From positions 1 through 20,050 of the IMG/VR virus record IMGVR_UViG_3300044643_000994: a DNA stretch of 20,050 nucleotides. One strand, 5' to 3'. Both the position numbers and the translations under genes were made by a program. Shown in pieces: positions 4,752-19,774 of the stretch (its first letter is position 1; each line of letters begins with the position of its first letter). The DNA is from a virus. The notes under the pieces are model-generated. The model was not told where the DNA came from. It ran no database searches and worked only from the letters and a program-made list of their open reading frames with translations.

Positions 4752-4769
4752 CTAGAAGGCTGGGACCAA

Positions 4770-5060
4770 ATGAACATCACCATCGCTGGTGTGAAGTATG
4801 AGTTCGATTCTGAAAAGTTGATGCTCTCTGAGGCTCGCTCCATTGAGAAGGTTTGCGGGTGCACATTCCAGGAATGGAGTGAACGCCTGCAAGCCGGCTC
4901 AATGGAGGCCTTGGCGGCTTTGGTGTGGATTGTGCAAAAGCGCACGAACCCTGAGCTGCGTTTCAGTGAGGTTGACTTTGAGATTGGTTCGGTTGAGATC
5001 GATGAGGACGAAGTGGACGAGGTAAACCCCACGGTGCCCTCATCGGATACGACCGACTGA
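4770..5060 (+). CDS. Tail assembly chaperone, short form (gpG-like)
   Basis: This 96-residue acidic protein (MNITIAGVKYEFDSEKLMLS...) lies between tube and tape-measure genes, the conserved place of the G/GT tail assembly chaperones that keep the tape measure soluble during tail assembly. The front half has a short beta hairpin then helices (SEARSIEKVCGCTFQEWSER, EALAALVWIVQKR). The rear is acidic (EIDEDEVDEVNPTVPSSD). The ribosome binding site is AGAAGG upstream of the ATG. The frame stops at 5058-5060, while a second open frame continues to 5191, which is explained by the slippery site at 5024-5030. The terminal TVPSSDTTD is unique to the unshifted form. Confidence 0.8.
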   Translation: MNITIAGVKYEFDSEKLMLSEARSIEKVCGCTFQEWSERLQAGSMEALAALVWIVQKRTNPELRFSEVDFEIGSVEIDEDEVDEVNPTVPSSDTTD

Positions 5061-9035: not shown

Positions 9036-9314
9036 ATGATGAGCGTTGTGGGTTCGTTGGCCGCGGGTTCACCACTGGTCGCTGGCGTTGTGCTGACCAG
9101 TGACAACGTTGCTGGTGCGATGACGTTTGTTGTTGCCTTGATTGTTGGACTGATCAGTGTTGGCACTGGTGTGGGCAAACTGTACGCGCGACTGAAGGCA
9201 CAGGTCGCGGCGAGTATTCGCCGTGACGAATTGCTTGACGAAATCGTGAAGCGCATGGACCGCATTGAGGTTCGACAAATCGAGATACAGAAAAGGCTTG
9301 ACCAGCCTCATTGA
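9036..9314 (+). CDS. Small membrane protein with C-terminal coiled coil (possible holin or holin partner)
   Basis: AGAGGGGAAG at 9018-9027 favours the ATG ATG pair at 9036/9039 over the ATG at 9009, which would add 9 residues and has no ribosome binding site. The 92-residue product has two hydrophobic stretches, one weak (SLAAGSPLVAGVVL) and one clear membrane span (AMTFVVALIVGLISVGTGVG). A charged helix follows (RRDELLDEIVKRMDRIEVRQ) with heptad spacing of hydrophobic residues. Location between tail and lysin genes suggests a lysis role. Actinophage lysis cassettes often hold two small membrane proteins, and this would be the first. Confidence 0.6.
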   Translation: MMSVVGSLAAGSPLVAGVVLTSDNVAGAMTFVVALIVGLISVGTGVGKLYARLKAQVAASIRRDELLDEIVKRMDRIEVRQIEIQKRLDQPH

Positions 9315-9320
9315 CCGGCA

Positions 9321-9338
9321 GGCCAGTTAAGGCTGGTC
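9321..9338 (+). terminator. Weak hairpin after the first lysis gene
   Basis: GGCCAG (9321-9326) can pair with CTGGTC (9333-9338), with one G-U pair and a 6-base loop, followed by CCCCCTTT and not by a clear T run. A second small inverted repeat, GACAC (9346-9350) and GTGTC (9357-9361), follows. The 102-base gap 9315-9416 otherwise holds no gene that I can see. A partial terminator or processing site is possible. Confidence 0.25.
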
Positions 9339-9416
9339 CCCCTTTGACACTTCATTGTGTCCTGGCCTGCCTCATTTTGCACGACCAATCAATCACATCA
9401 ATTGAAGGGATCACTC

Positions 9417-15758: not shown

Positions 15759-16075
15759 GCGCGTGGGATGTGAAAGGCACCGACGTAATCAAGAGCTGTA
15801 AACGGTGCAACGAACCAGTCTTCATTGTCCACACTGAGACACCAGGACCAATCCTGCGCGTCCCACTGGACATTGAACCAGTCAGTGGCCCAGCCGTAGG
15901 GTTAATGTTTGAGCACTGCGGTGACGGTTACTGGCTGGAAACAAAGGCAGTGCGACCTGGCATGGACGCAATCCACGTCACACACCACTGCCAACCACCT
16001 GCACGCTGCAAATGGTGCGAGCAGGTACACACAACAACAATAACAACAACAAGGAAGAAGGACCACAATGAGTGA
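15755..16075 (+). CDS. Small Cys-pair (zinc-binding) protein
   Basis: The start is GTG 15755, in a GTGA overlap. The 106-residue protein has SCKRCNEPVFIV near the N-terminus and HCQPPARCKWCEQV near the C-terminus, plus EHCGDGYW between, a pattern suggesting one zinc site formed across the chain. A beta-rich middle (ILRVPLDIEPVSG) lies between the pairs. The end is low complexity (TTTITTTRKK), coded by a CAACAATAACAACAACA tract. Function is unknown. The neighbours (RecB-like nuclease, OB-like protein) suggest DNA metabolism. Confidence 0.65.
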   Translation: MSAWDVKGTDVIKSCKRCNEPVFIVHTETPGPILRVPLDIEPVSGPAVGLMFEHCGDGYWLETKAVRPGMDAIHVTHHCQPPARCKWCEQVHTTTITTTRKKDHNE

Positions 16076-16391
16076 CATCCAATGGGACGAATTCGGTGCA
16101 AGTGAATTCGTCAAGTTCAGTGCAGTAGGCGACACCATCAGTGGCAAGATCACGAACATTCGTATCGGCCAGGACTTCAACGGCAACCCATGCCCCGTCC
16201 TCGACCTCGACACAGGCAACGGTTCACGCACCGTCACCGCTGGTCAAGCGAACCTGAAGTCCCAGATCGTCCAGCTCCGCCCAAGTGTCGGGGACGCCAT
16301 TAGCATTACCTATGATCGGGATGAGAAGGCTGAGAAGGGCATGAAGAAGGTGTTCGCCATCAAGGTGGACTCCAACACAACACCCTTCTAA
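16068..16391 (+). CDS. OB-fold-like protein, possible ssDNA-binding protein
   Basis: The ATG at 16068 is 8 bases inside the previous gene, with GAAGGA (16053-16060 region) upstream. The 107 residues show an OB-like strand order: FVKFSAVGDTISGKITNIRI, then GQDFNGNPCPVLDLDTGN, then GSRTVTAGQANLKSQIVQLR and GDAISITYDRDEKAEKGMKK, ending FAIKVDS. Proteins with 'VGDxxxGxixxixxGxDFNGNxCPxLxLD' are common beside RecB-like nuclease genes in actinophages. The charged loop and acidic start fit a small ssDNA-binding protein, but there is no classic acidic SSB C-tip, so this is inference. It ends the early operon; the structured leader follows. Confidence 0.55.
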   Translation: MSDIQWDEFGASEFVKFSAVGDTISGKITNIRIGQDFNGNPCPVLDLDTGNGSRTVTAGQANLKSQIVQLRPSVGDAISITYDRDEKAEKGMKKVFAIKVDSNTTPF

Positions 16392-16406
16392 CAAGACTTG
16401 TCGCGC

Positions 16407-16551
16407 TGGGCTGCGTTGACAAACGCCTCCCTGCTCTATTCTCCGGAGCAGGGGGGCACCACCCTCCCAGGTGAAAAGCCCACACAACTGAATAGCACCG
16501 GCCTTGAAGTGGGGAAGACTGATAGGCCGGTGCACAGTGATAAGCAGCCCA
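16407..16551 (+). ncRNA. Structured RNA leader upstream of PrimPol (riboswitch-like)
   Basis: TGGGCTGC (16407-16414) pairs with GCAGCCCA (16544-16551) as an 8-bp closing stem. Inside, GCCTCCCTGCTC (16425-16436) pairs with GAGCAGGGGGGC (16446-16457), 12 bp with one G-U. GCACCGGCCT (16495-16504) pairs with AGGCCGGTGC (16524-16533), a perfect 10 bp. Loop one contains TTCTCC (16439-16444) and loop two GGGGAA (16511-16516), which can pair, giving a kissing interaction. A small GCGTT/AACGC hairpin (16413-16417, 16422-16426) is an alternative. The junction 16458-16494 is unpaired. The closing stem ends 5 bases before AAGGAG (16557-16562). The 178-base gap holds no convincing gene. No known class is assigned. 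Confidence 0.65.
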
Positions 16552-16569
16552 CGATCAAGGAGCCACAAC

Positions 16570-17211
16570 ATGAACACCGATCACATCCAAAACCTCACGG
16601 ATACGCCCCTAACATTTACGCAGAAAGAACGCGACGAAATAGCGGTCCACCACTACCTGTCAACCATTGACCCGCAACACTGGTTCGAGCAGATCGCACC
16701 ACGCCTTGATGAAGGCCGCAACAGTGAGCAATACCGCAAACTCAGTGCACCAGGCATACTCGCATCAACCGCGTTATGGTACGCCGATCAAGGCATAGCA
16801 GTGTTCCCATTGCAACCAAACACCAAGACACCAATGCCAGGCTCACGCGGGTTCAAAGACTCAACAACAAACCCTGAACAGATCAGTGCGTGGTGGAAAG
16901 ATAACCCCACAGCAAACATCGGAATCCCAACAGGGCACAACTTTGATGTCCTAGACATTGACGGTGCAGTAGGTTTCGACAACCTTCAGCTACTAGAGGT
17001 TGAACAACCCCTCGCCTACGTGATCACCCCGCGACCTGGTTTGCACATTTATCAACCAGTTGAGCAGGGCGCTGGCAACGCCGCCGGCATCCTCCCCGCC
17101 ATTGACTACCGCGGGCTCGGTGGCTACGTCGTCGCACCACCATCAATCATCGATGGTGCACTGTACGAATGGGTGAAGCCACCACTGGCACTCCTAGCGC
17201 ACATCAAATAA
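16570..17211 (+). CDS. PrimPol: bifunctional DNA primase/polymerase N-terminal domain protein
   Basis: AAGGAG (16557-16562) sets ATG 16570 and 213 residues. The archaeo-eukaryotic primase PrimPol fold is indicated by GIAVFPLQPNTKTPMPGSRG (Lys86), ISAWWKDNPTANIGIPTG, the catalytic FDVLDIDG (Asp129, Asp131), PRPGLHIYQP (His159) and AIDYRGLGGYVVAPPSI (Asp179). Such enzymes make primers and can extend DNA at replication start. The protein ends right after the domain (PPLALLAHIK), whereas many phage homologues continue into a helicase. Here a nuclease gene lies between it and the helicase gene. It is preceded by the structured RNA leader, which probably affects its translation. Confidence 0.85.
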   Translation: MNTDHIQNLTDTPLTFTQKERDEIAVHHYLSTIDPQHWFEQIAPRLDEGRNSEQYRKLSAPGILASTALWYADQGIAVFPLQPNTKTPMPGSRGFKDSTTNPEQISAWWKDNPTANIGIPTGHNFDVLDIDGAVGFDNLQLLEVEQPLAYVITPRPGLHIYQPVEQGAGNAAGILPAIDYRGLGGYVVAPPSIIDGALYEWVKPPLALLAHIK

Positions 17212-17223
17212 GGAGTAATCGTA

Positions 17224-17880
17224 GTGATAACGGCTAAGGAAACGATTTACGCTGGGCACCATTTCAGGTCAAGGCTTGAAGCTCGATGGGCCGTTTATTT
17301 TGATGCGCTTGGAATTGAATGGATTTATGAACCACAAACATTTACAAATTTTGATTTTGAGGGTACGGCAGGGCAAAGTTATTTGCCAGATTTTTATTTA
17401 CCAGAATGTGATCTGTTTGTTGAAGTAAAAGGCTCATTGGATAATTTTAATTATCAAAAAATGGATGATTTTGTTGATTGGGTTTTGACGAACAAAGAAG
17501 AGTTTATTGATTTCTATGGTTGCACTGGTGATGGTGGAACATTGCTAGTCCTATCTGACATCCCGAAACAGGGTGTAGACACATCACATTTATTTATGAG
17601 GTGCCGAAAGGGAACAGAGAGTAGTTTTATTCCATTGTTTGTAATTTTGCTTTGCAATGGGGCTGGTAAGTTAAAGCCAAAAGGTTGGACGCGAGTTGAT
17701 AATCCGATTTGGATGCTTATGTTCTCAACATCTTTTCAGCCTGGTCCGGTTGACGCATTACAAATTATTCACCCAACAAGGATTAATTACTACGGTGACT
17801 ATGAATACCTTTATCAATTGCATTGTTTGGCATTAGATAAGGCACGTATGGCAAGGTTTGAGTGGGGCCAAAATGGCTGA
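17224..17880 (+). CDS. PD-(D/E)XK nuclease-like protein, AT-rich insertion
   Basis: AAGGAG (17210-17215) with 8 bases to GTG 17224 gives 218 residues. The front holds FRSRLEARWAVYFDALGI (Glu19), SYLPDFYLPE (Asp56) and LFVEVKGS (Glu67-x-Lys69), the restriction-endonuclease fold active site E ... D-x10-ExK in the arrangement of small phage nucleases. The rear, about residues 75-218, has no recognised domain. The gene is strikingly AT-rich (runs such as ATTTTTATTTA) while both neighbours are not, and codon third positions differ, so it was probably acquired separately. It sits exactly between PrimPol and helicase genes and overlaps the helicase start by 8 bases. A homing-type or host-DNA-cutting role is possible. 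Confidence 0.7.
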   Translation: MITAKETIYAGHHFRSRLEARWAVYFDALGIEWIYEPQTFTNFDFEGTAGQSYLPDFYLPECDLFVEVKGSLDNFNYQKMDDFVDWVLTNKEEFIDFYGCTGDGGTLLVLSDIPKQGVDTSHLFMRCRKGTESSFIPLFVILLCNGAGKLKPKGWTRVDNPIWMLMFSTSFQPGPVDALQIIHPTRINYYGDYEYLYQLHCLALDKARMARFEWGQNG

Positions 17881-19615
17881 AAAACTGACAGCCCGCCAAC
17901 AAGCGTTGAAGATCAAAGCTGAACAGCAGGCCAAAGCGAAACAGCCCACGGCACCAGCACCAGCAGTGACCAACGTGACCAACATTGACAATGCCCGCGA
18001 CAGCAGGCACCAACGCTACTTCGATCAAGCGTTCATCCGCATCATGAACGACTTCAACGCCAGTGCCGAAGGCACACGCAACGACGCACTCAACAAAGCA
18101 ACATACGCCCTGGCACAAATCGTGGCCGGTGGGTGGCTACTACAAGGCCCAACAGTTGCCACACTACGTTCCGCCGCCCTAGCCAAAGGGTTAGGGCAAG
18201 ACGAAATTAGGCGAACCATGGACTCCGCGTGGGAAAAGGGGTGGCTACAACCACGACCAGCACCACCACAATCGCCCTACTACAGTGACGGCAACATCAA
18301 CTTCACCTACGACCAACACACAGGCGAAATCGTTGAACAAACCACCAACACTGAACCAGCACTAACGCCAGAAGAATACGACAAGTTTTGGTCAGCGACC
18401 GAACAACTAGAAATTATTCACGCATCAGCTAGAGCTAGGCTCGTAGGTCCCTGGGCACTGCTCGGTGCATGCTTCACACGCATCAACGTCATGGTCCCCT
18501 ACTTCGTCACCATCCCACCACTGACAGGTGGTCGAGCAAGCCTGAACCTATTCGTTGGGCTAGTCGGCCCATCAGGTGCAGGCAAAGGTGGTGCAACAGC
18601 GGCGGCAACAGACACCATAGACACAGGTGCAACATGGCTCGGTGGTGAAGATGGTCAACGCATGGTCAACCTGGGCAGTGGTGAAGGCATCATCCACGCA
18701 TTCCGCAAACGCACCAAAGACGGTGACGAATGGAACACTCACGCCGTCGTGTTCAACGTGCAAGAAATTGACCTACTCACCGCCACAGCAACCAGGTCAG
18801 GGGCAACAATCCTGCCAGTGTTGCGATCAATGTGGAGTGGTGAGCAGCTCGGCTTCCAAAACGCTGACCCCACGAGGCGCATACAAGTACCCCCACACCA
18901 ATACAGGGCCAGCCTCCTAGTCGGAATCCAGCCACTACGAGCGGGAAGCCTGCTCGATGATGCTGACGGTGGCACCCCGCAACGTTTCCTATTCGTGCCC
19001 ACCGATGACCCTGGTGCACCAGATCAGCCACCGATAAAGCCTGAGAAGATTAAGTGGCGTAAACCCTTGTTTGATTCCCTGCGTGACCCTTTTACTGACA
19101 CATACGACATTACCCTCCCAGAGGCCGTAGAATCGCTTGTAAGGGACCAACGCCTAGAGATGCTACGGAACCAAGCGGAAGGGTCTAAAAACGCTTCAGG
19201 GCACGACACACTGGCCAGAATCAAGTACGCAGCACACTTTGCGCTACTCGCTGGGCGCACAACCGTCACCGACGACGATTGGGACCTAGCCGGCACCCTC
19301 CACAAAATCAGTGTCCACACACGCGAAAACATCCAAACACAACTACGCCAACAAGCCCAACTCAAAGCCCACAAAGTTGCCATCGCCCGAGGAGCTGAAG
19401 CCAGCACCGTCAGCACCCGCATCGATGATGACTCAATGGGAGCAACGAAACACAAAATCAAGATTCTGCTCGGCAATGGGCCGCTCAAGATTTACGAAAT
19501 CAAAAAGAAAATCACTCCCCGTTTACGCGAATACGTTCACCCAGCAGTGGACGAATTGCTAAATGAAAACACAATTAACCTTGTGGATAAAGTGTGCTCA
19601 TTGGCCGTTAAATGA
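17873..19615 (+). CDS. Primase/replicative helicase-like ATPase
   Basis: ATG 17873 is preferred over TTG 17858; 580 residues. Residues 1-40 are a basic, Gln/Ala-rich linker. Residues 70-130 (LNKATYALAQIVAGGWLLQG, then AALAKGLGQDEIRRTMDSAW) are the helical module that follows PrimPol in fused actinophage primases. Residues 225-385 form the ATPase: Walker A GPSGAGKG (232-239), Walker B-like HAVVFNVQEIDLL (290-302) and a likely arginine finger GGTPQRFLF (Arg371). The end, about 525-575, is winged-helix-like (HKIKILLGNGPLKIYEIKKK). It should unwind DNA at the fork with PrimPol. A DnaA-type box lies in its last codons and a palindrome array directly after its stop. Confidence 0.8.
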   Translation: MAEKLTARQQALKIKAEQQAKAKQPTAPAPAVTNVTNIDNARDSRHQRYFDQAFIRIMNDFNASAEGTRNDALNKATYALAQIVAGGWLLQGPTVATLRSAALAKGLGQDEIRRTMDSAWEKGWLQPRPAPPQSPYYSDGNINFTYDQHTGEIVEQTTNTEPALTPEEYDKFWSATEQLEIIHASARARLVGPWALLGACFTRINVMVPYFVTIPPLTGGRASLNLFVGLVGPSGAGKGGATAAATDTIDTGATWLGGEDGQRMVNLGSGEGIIHAFRKRTKDGDEWNTHAVVFNVQEIDLLTATATRSGATILPVLRSMWSGEQLGFQNADPTRRIQVPPHQYRASLLVGIQPLRAGSLLDDADGGTPQRFLFVPTDDPGAPDQPPIKPEKIKWRKPLFDSLRDPFTDTYDITLPEAVESLVRDQRLEMLRNQAEGSKNASGHDTLARIKYAAHFALLAGRTTVTDDDWDLAGTLHKISVHTRENIQTQLRQQAQLKAHKVAIARGAEASTVSTRIDDDSMGATKHKIKILLGNGPLKIYEIKKKITPRLREYVHPAVDELLNENTINLVDKVCSLAVK

Positions 19616-19643
19616 TGGTGACGAATGGTGACGATCGTCACCA
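19616..19643 (+). repeat. Half-site and 18-bp palindrome, left copy of mirrored array
   Basis: TGGTGACGA (19616-19624), one base, then TGGTGACGATCGTCACCA (19626-19643), a perfect 18-base palindrome. The two elements give three TGGTGACGA sites: two in the palindrome and one in direct orientation with its left arm. The right copy is the reverse complement with one mismatch in the spacer. Confidence 0.85.
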
Positions 19644-19730
19644 AGTGTCATTAAAAAAAAGGGACATAATGGTACAAATAGAAAAAAATAGTGTGCCCCT
19701 TAGGGGAAACCTCGTTTTAACGAGACACAG

Positions 19731-19758
19731 TGGTGACGATCGTCACCAATCGTCACCA
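19731..19758 (-). repeat. 18-bp palindrome and half-site, right copy of mirrored array
   Basis: TGGTGACGATCGTCACCA (19731-19748), one base, then TCGTCACCA (19750-19758). The 28 bases match the reverse complement of 19616-19643 at 27 of 28 positions, the only difference being the spacer base. The copies are 87 bases apart. This symmetry suggests binding of a dimeric or higher-order protein on both sides of the AT-rich core. Confidence 0.85.
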
Positions 19759-19774
19759 CTGTGGATAACTTCTA

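Follow-up and report, generated by a model that had tools for sequence, protein, structure and literature searches.

In this virus, the intergenic gap that separates the SSB-like gene from the PrimPol gene holds a conserved structured RNA, which is supported by covariation and selectively kept before PrimPol, and which adopts a multibranch fold made up of an outer helix and the helices P1 to P4 (Table 1). The window, which is the complete virus record of 20,050 b, also carries tail genes, a WhiB-like gene and a gene for a Cas4-type exonuclease; the WhiB gene and the relatives of the virus point to an actinobacterial host. The function of the element is something that we infer: the reading we favour, to which we give slightly less than an even chance, is that of a cis-acting intercistronic RNA in the SSB-PrimPol mRNA that sets, and probably also regulates, the expression of the following primase gene.

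Architecture and conservation of the leader

The leader strand has a minimum free energy of −81.3 kcal/mol, as compared with −59.9 kcal/mol for shuffled sequences (z −4.55), and none of 200 dinucleotide shuffles reached this value. When the entire window was scanned for structure, the leader was within its top three structured places (z −5.55). An earlier note, made from the sequence of the window, had described a 178-base gap before PrimPol, which is confirmed (16392-16569), and had drawn in it an 8-bp closing stem, a 12-bp arm and a perfect 10-bp arm. The closing stem and the 10-bp arm are where the note had put them, and the 12-bp arm proved to be the 13-bp P2; the outer helix, P3, P4a and a small hairpin have to be added to this scheme. 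The letters of the two loops (TTCTCC and GGGGAA) had been read correctly, and the element does end about 5 bases before the Shine-Dalgarno (SD) sequence AAGGAG (16557-16562).

Table 1. Features of the SSB-PrimPol junction and of the adjoining replication module, in window coordinates
Feature	Position	Strand	Remarks
SSB-like gene	16068..16391	+	107 aa, C-terminal tip ..TTPF; element begins directly 3′ of stop codon
Whole intercistronic structured element (PrimPol leader)	16392..16569	+	178-b gap; z −4.55 and −5.55; covariation; six leaders
Outer helix, 5′ strand CTTGTCG	16397..16403	+	Partner CGA-T-CAAG 16552-16559, T16555 bulged; overlaps first part of SD
P1 closing stem, 5′ strand TGGGCTGC	16407..16414	+	Partner GCAGCCCA 16544-16551, 8 bp; invariant in six
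Small hairpin GTT-GACA-AAC	16415..16424	+	3 bp; between P1 and P2; invariant
P2 hairpin	16425..16457	+	13 bp, 16425-16437/16445-16457; loop ATTCTCC
P3 hairpin CACC-CTCCCA-GGTG	16460..16473	+	16460-16463/16470-16473; compensatory change
Junction AAAAGCCCACACA	16474..16486	+	AGCCCA 16477-16482 can substitute for P1 3′ strand
P4	16487..16538	+	P4a ACTG/CAGT 16487-16490/16535-16538; P4b 10-bp arm 16495-16504/16524-16533
P4 tip GTGGGGAAG	16509..16517	+	Invariant in six leaders; U[GGGGAA]G loop recurs elsewhere
3′ strands of P1 and of the outer helix	16544..16559	+
PrimPol SD AAGGAG	16557..16562	+	Partial pairing within fold A in five of the six leaders; hardly any in L011
PrimPol gene	16570..17211	+	213 aa, PF09250 domain only; heads exchangeable replication module
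Endonuclease-like gene	17224-17880		Between PrimPol and helicase
DUF3987-type helicase, or second half of a PrimPol-helicase	17858..19615	+	Same module as PrimPol
Palindromic stem-loop	19614..19768	+	TGGTGACGATCGTCACCA repeats, AT-rich centre, TGTGGATAA; z −7.5; 3′ end of module

The element was found directly 3′ of the SSB-like gene in seven IMG/VR contigs, in one copy each. These contigs represent five variants other than the window's own (L003, L007, L009, L010 and L011), with leaders 87-99% identical to that of the window. Comparison of homologous leaders, which the earlier note had proposed as a check on its arms, revealed covariation in P2, P3 and P4. The alignment, which comprises only six leaders including the window's and owes most of its covariation to L011 and L007, contains five base pairs with two-sided compensatory changes, one in P2, one in P3 and three in P4. 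In both L007 and L011, P3 reads CATC..GATG, a compensatory C-G to U-A change. P2 of L011 has one C-G to U-A change and is lengthened to 14 bp by an extra A-U pair, and the P4 strands GCACCGGCC/GGCCGGTGC are replaced there by GTGCTGGCC/GGCCAGCAC, which accounts for three two-sided pair changes. Overall, 99.4% of the alignment cells pair, as compared with 39-54% when the partners are slid. The outer helix is preserved in all six leaders, two of its pairs through G-U changes. P1, P4a and the small hairpin are invariant in the six, and covariation thus neither supports nor opposes them. On the sense strand, G-U pairs occur at six places as against one A-C mismatch; these are few events, and the pattern leans toward RNA of the coding strand as the selected form.

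Fourfold-site identity between the window and L011 is 46.5% in the SSB gene and 34% in the exonuclease gene, whereas the element is 85% identical at paired and about 92% identical at unpaired positions (gaps left out). Because the identity of the element is far above that of the fourfold sites, we conclude that the element is under purifying selection of its own. Two other readings of the conservation were discarded: the window does contain an ORF at 16398-16670, but its frame is broken by indels in L007, L009 and L011, and a mobile repeat does not agree with the single copy per record.

The earlier note's description of the RNA as unassigned held in the covariance search that it had suggested, in which the window gave no match to any Rfam family at the gathering score; with E values up to 10, the sole match within 16300-16700 was a human lncRNA model, far under threshold. 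A covariance model of the whole element, with 71 and 70 loci and five genomes of prokaryotes as targets, likewise yielded no credible wider homologue; the candidate L090 (E 0.44) was rejected, being a hairpin followed by promoter-like sequence. The SSB-like protein has no Pfam or PHROG match, and relatives of it were found neither in genome contigs nor in 395 genomes of the class to which L033's genome belongs. L011 carries a DNA cytosine methyltransferase-like gene (1525-2697) between the exonuclease and SSB-like genes, and L115 and L117 also have inserts at this place.

Loop contacts and the junction

The earlier note had likened the element to a purine-type riboswitch, with a closing stem, two arms whose loops kiss and an unpaired junction that would hold the ligand. 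A closing stem and arms before a coding region are indeed common to both, but the leader has more helices, being a multibranch structure with P2, P3, P4 and the small hairpin, and no purine riboswitch model of Rfam matched it even at E values up to 10. The six-base complementarity between the loops is at chance level, since a complementary run of at least 6 is present in 42.5% of the composition-shuffled loop pairs. Nor do the relatives preserve the contact: TTCTCC has become TTCTAC in L009 with GGGGAA unchanged, and no contact pair has changed on both sides. We also considered contacts of the P4 loop with CCCAC of the junction or with the P3 loop; these hold in all six leaders, yet they are unsupported because they rest on invariant letters or on one-sided change.

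The junction GGTGAAAAGCCCACACAACT, which the note had taken to be unpaired throughout, is paired and covarying in part, given that its GGTG is the partner of CACC in P3 and its ACTG that of CAGT in P4a. Its AGCCCA has, in addition, an alternative partner in the closing stem, which further argues against a ligand pocket at this position. The pairing of AGCCCA with the P1 5′ strand (fold B) is adopted in all six leaders by a transcript cut before the P1 3′ strand, but not by the full transcript, which takes up fold A. A two-step folding path, fold B and then fold A, is a suggestion of these folding models, and we keep the switch as an idea only, because shuffles of the junction letters give an equal fold A/B gain in 2-18% of cases.

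A metabolite riboswitch is, in our estimate, extremely improbable. Such an element could well be a multibranch leader before an SD sequence, and all six leaders allow two mutually exclusive folds to be drawn; however, no riboswitch family of Rfam was matched, the kissing loops are unsupported, the element is restricted to one lineage, and there is no conserved pocket besides segments that are paired or alternatively paired. The translational control of PrimPol that the note had envisaged is still plausible, whereas no sign of a small-molecule ligand was seen.

Recurrence of the loop and exchange of the replication module

Hairpins read by proteins usually consist of a rigid stem that is free in sequence and a loop that is fixed. 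The GGGGAA motif of the loop was defined on the window, and only then searched for among relatives of the exonuclease and PrimPol. The leader of L012, whose SSB is 72% identical to the window's, lacks the branched element and has instead a 12-bp hairpin with a U[GGGGAA]G loop; in shuffles of this leader, GTGGGGAAG appeared in 10 of 20,000 and the exact hexaloop hairpin in none of 1,500. In L130, the U[GGGGAA]G loop caps 22 pairs of unrelated sequence with one bulge, between an SSB-like gene ending in ..KAPF and PrimPol. Two further cases were accepted on somewhat looser position criteria. One is L067, in which a U[GGGGAA]G hairpin precedes a small ORF between the likely SSB counterpart and PrimPol, about 420 b before the latter. 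The other is L035, with the near-match AGGGGAAGC (loop AGGGGAA, then GC) about 380 b before PrimPol. The distance from the loop to the PrimPol start is 57-59 b in the six leaders, 60 in L012 and 46 in L130, and in L012, L130, L067 and the lineage of the window, the next start follows the loop at 46-60 b, the loop being always on the sense strand. Because of the positions in L067 and L035, we regard the target as the next gene, which is not always PrimPol. GTGGGGAAG is present in a single copy per record, in this hairpin (window, G007, G008, G009, G011, G012, G408 and G409), L035 being the exception among the full records checked. Among 126 other strong hairpins, a single one has GGGGAA in its loop, namely that of L130.

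Hairpins at this junction are common beyond the GGGGAA form. At 38 of 82 loci, PrimPol is directly preceded by an ORF that ends in PF, and a hairpin of at least 12 bp is present in 15 of 20 gaps between such a PF-ending SSB-like gene and PrimPol (two of the 20 being from the window's own lineage), as compared with 2 of 14 other gaps (p 0.001). These hairpins carry other loops too, several of them C-rich; since they are so common in these gaps and their loops so varied, we take a hairpin at the SSB-PrimPol junction to be an old actinophage habit. On this view, the GGGGAA tip is a recurrent special form of it, and the branched element an elaboration in the window's lineage. C-rich loops (CCCCAA, CCCCGA and CCCCAC) recur on different stems in the SSB-PrimPol gaps of L033, L038, L039, L040, L043 and L139 and may represent a second loop class beside GGGGAA. 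The gap contains tRNA-Val and tRNA-Leu genes in two phages (L139 2814-2896 and L141 2832-2906).

That a hairpin of 12-22 bp with any of many loop sequences is usual in actinophages directly 3′ of the SSB-like stop codon suits another explanation, in which the element is a terminator, an attenuator or a 3′-end stabiliser that provides for much SSB and little primase, the loop motif being incidental. The attenuator between rpsU and dnaG is a precedent for such unequal expression within one operon. A search of the leader for consensus promoters found none, and at the element there is no terminator-like site and no U tract after the G+C-rich stem, though actinobacterial terminator hairpins may be without a U run. 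We consider this explanation unlikely: in the window's lineage, loops and junctions show more conservation than termination requires, the element of the six phages is a large branched fold, and GGGGAA sits on unrelated stems while being absent from other strong hairpins.

The genes behind the leader have been exchanged. When compared with L007, L009, L010 and L011, the window loses homology at 16576, within the first PrimPol codons, and regains it at 19772; these phages carry another PrimPol (45-50% identity) together with a RepA-like ATPase helicase. This is a clean swap of the PrimPol-helicase module (16577-19771) between close phages, with the PrimPol start codon and 19772 as its borders, and every exchanged module opens with a PrimPol gene. 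Leaders about 99% identical to the window's (L003 and L010) precede different modules, which indicates that the element either is part of the SSB side or exerts its action on any gene that follows. An origin would travel with its replicase; here the leader stays while the module is replaced, though a PrimPol homologue is always present. The stem-loop at the 3′ end of the module is absent from the swapped-in modules, and the TGTGGATAA within it is presumably a DnaA-like box. This stem-loop is likely a better origin candidate than the leader, and we prefer it because it is analogous to the pRN1 stem-loop (PMC4234260).

Two observations concern the modules themselves. The region 17208-17871, which includes the endonuclease-like gene, is an insert, as L113 of the same lineage joins 17207 directly to 17872; the gene has a weak match to Phage_endo_I and looks like a free-standing mobile endonuclease. 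In L115 (14085-14165), and equivalently in L117, L114 and L116, homology resumes after a conserved stretch of noncoding DNA (GGTCGCTTGCCGCGACTGCTAGGATCGG...), which may be the other module's origin or another structured RNA.

The main competing reading is that the leader acts as DNA, a single-stranded hairpin offering GTGGGGAAG to PrimPol as a priming site in the manner of RSF1010 ssiA/ssiB or the pRN1 stem-loop. The leader strand folds with DNA energies too (z −3.9), the single-copy GTGGGGAAG adjoins PrimPol in an invariant loop on unrelated stems, and a DNA hairpin explains the recurrence of the loop equally well. The pRN1 PrimPol starts at GTG and its replicon requires the stem-loop beside the gene (PMC4234260), and the NrS-1 PrimPol requires an 8-nt template motif that occurs twice in its genome (PMC7102993). 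We nevertheless find priming on the leader rather improbable. The sense-strand deviations are G-U and not A-C; the multibranch RNA, the outer helix at the SD and the constant sense orientation would all be superfluous; and a replicon-specific stem-loop with a DnaA-like box, that at 19614-19768, swaps with the module, whereas the leader does not. As to the precedents, the GTG motif of pRN1 can be mutated without loss of replication, and the long stem-loop that adjoins the pRN1 replicase gene, with GTG in its loop, lies 3′ of the gene, so that its better counterpart in the window is 19614-19768 (PMC4234260). RSF1010 ssiA/ssiB resemble the leader in having a loop on a stem near a primase gene, but they act as DNA in an iteron replicon (PMC4234260).

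A possible operator for the following gene

Structured phage leaders that control replication genes are classical in T4 and a few others; we know of none in phages with PrimPol replication. We favour an intercistronic operator because the loop is fixed while the stem is free, the spacing is 46-60 b, the sense strand is constant and the outer helix reaches the SD. As in an operator, a conserved hairpin with an invariant loop stands near the ribosome-binding site of a replication gene. The P4 hairpin displays GGGGAA 57-59 nt ahead of the start codon of PrimPol; a protein that binds this loop would lower translation. PrimPol itself is the first candidate for this protein, because every exchanged module begins with its gene; the SSB or a host protein would be the other candidates. 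The outer helix would at the same time cover part of the SD, comparable to T4 gp43 at its own operator hairpin, although only part of the SD is occluded, and hardly any of it in L011. Less certain steps are that the leader might pass from fold B during transcription to fold A once complete, and that ribosomes finishing the SSB gene might open the outer helix. We infer the partner, the repression and the RNA as the acting form.

In the T4 gp43 operator, a hairpin with conserved loop letters lies some 40 b 5′ of the start codon, and its stem may vary in length and sequence (PMC3014915). What the T4/RB69 gene 43 operator shares with the leader is thus a hairpin with a conserved loop that precedes the start codon for a replication enzyme; it differs in being a single hairpin of 16-18 bases, whereas here the RNA is branched, spans 162 b, bears its hairpin 57-59 b upstream and has other loop letters. 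It also has a bound polymerase, whereas PrimPol is a putative binder. The autogenous leader pseudoknot of T4 gene 32 is likewise a structured RNA in a phage SSB/replication mRNA (PMC535899, PMC3014915), but it acts on gene 32 itself, while our element is 3′ of the SSB gene and contains no supported pseudoknot.

The preservation of the structure whatever gene follows, and its place before a long operon, could also suggest that the gap yields a small RNA that acts in trans, or an antitermination RNA similar to the put or LoaP hairpins. We hold this to be very unlikely, as the element is without promoter-like or terminator-like signals of its own, and in seven leaders loop and start are 57-60 apart, which suggests that the element acts on the gene that follows.

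An extension of the operator, and a distinctly unlikely one in our judgement, is that PrimPol reads GTGGGGAAG twice, in the mRNA leader, where it would shut off its own synthesis, and in single-stranded DNA, where it would start primers. If this is true, the dual reading would couple the priming of the genome to the supply of the enzyme through one sequence, whose stems drift while its loop survives module exchange.

With regard to the operator that we favour, a regulatory element would here outlast the exchange of the enzymes behind it. The element is one outside Rfam that is supported by covariation, with a loop that recurs in unrelated phages beside PrimPol, and it can serve phage genomics as a marker of the SSB-PrimPol junction.

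Structure was also detected elsewhere in the window. The stretch 4761-5015, around an ORF at 4770-5060, is highly structured (z −5.8, −107 kcal/mol over 261 b), and 9181-9350 is structured as well (z −4.45), with a G+C-rich hairpin toward its end that may be a terminator.
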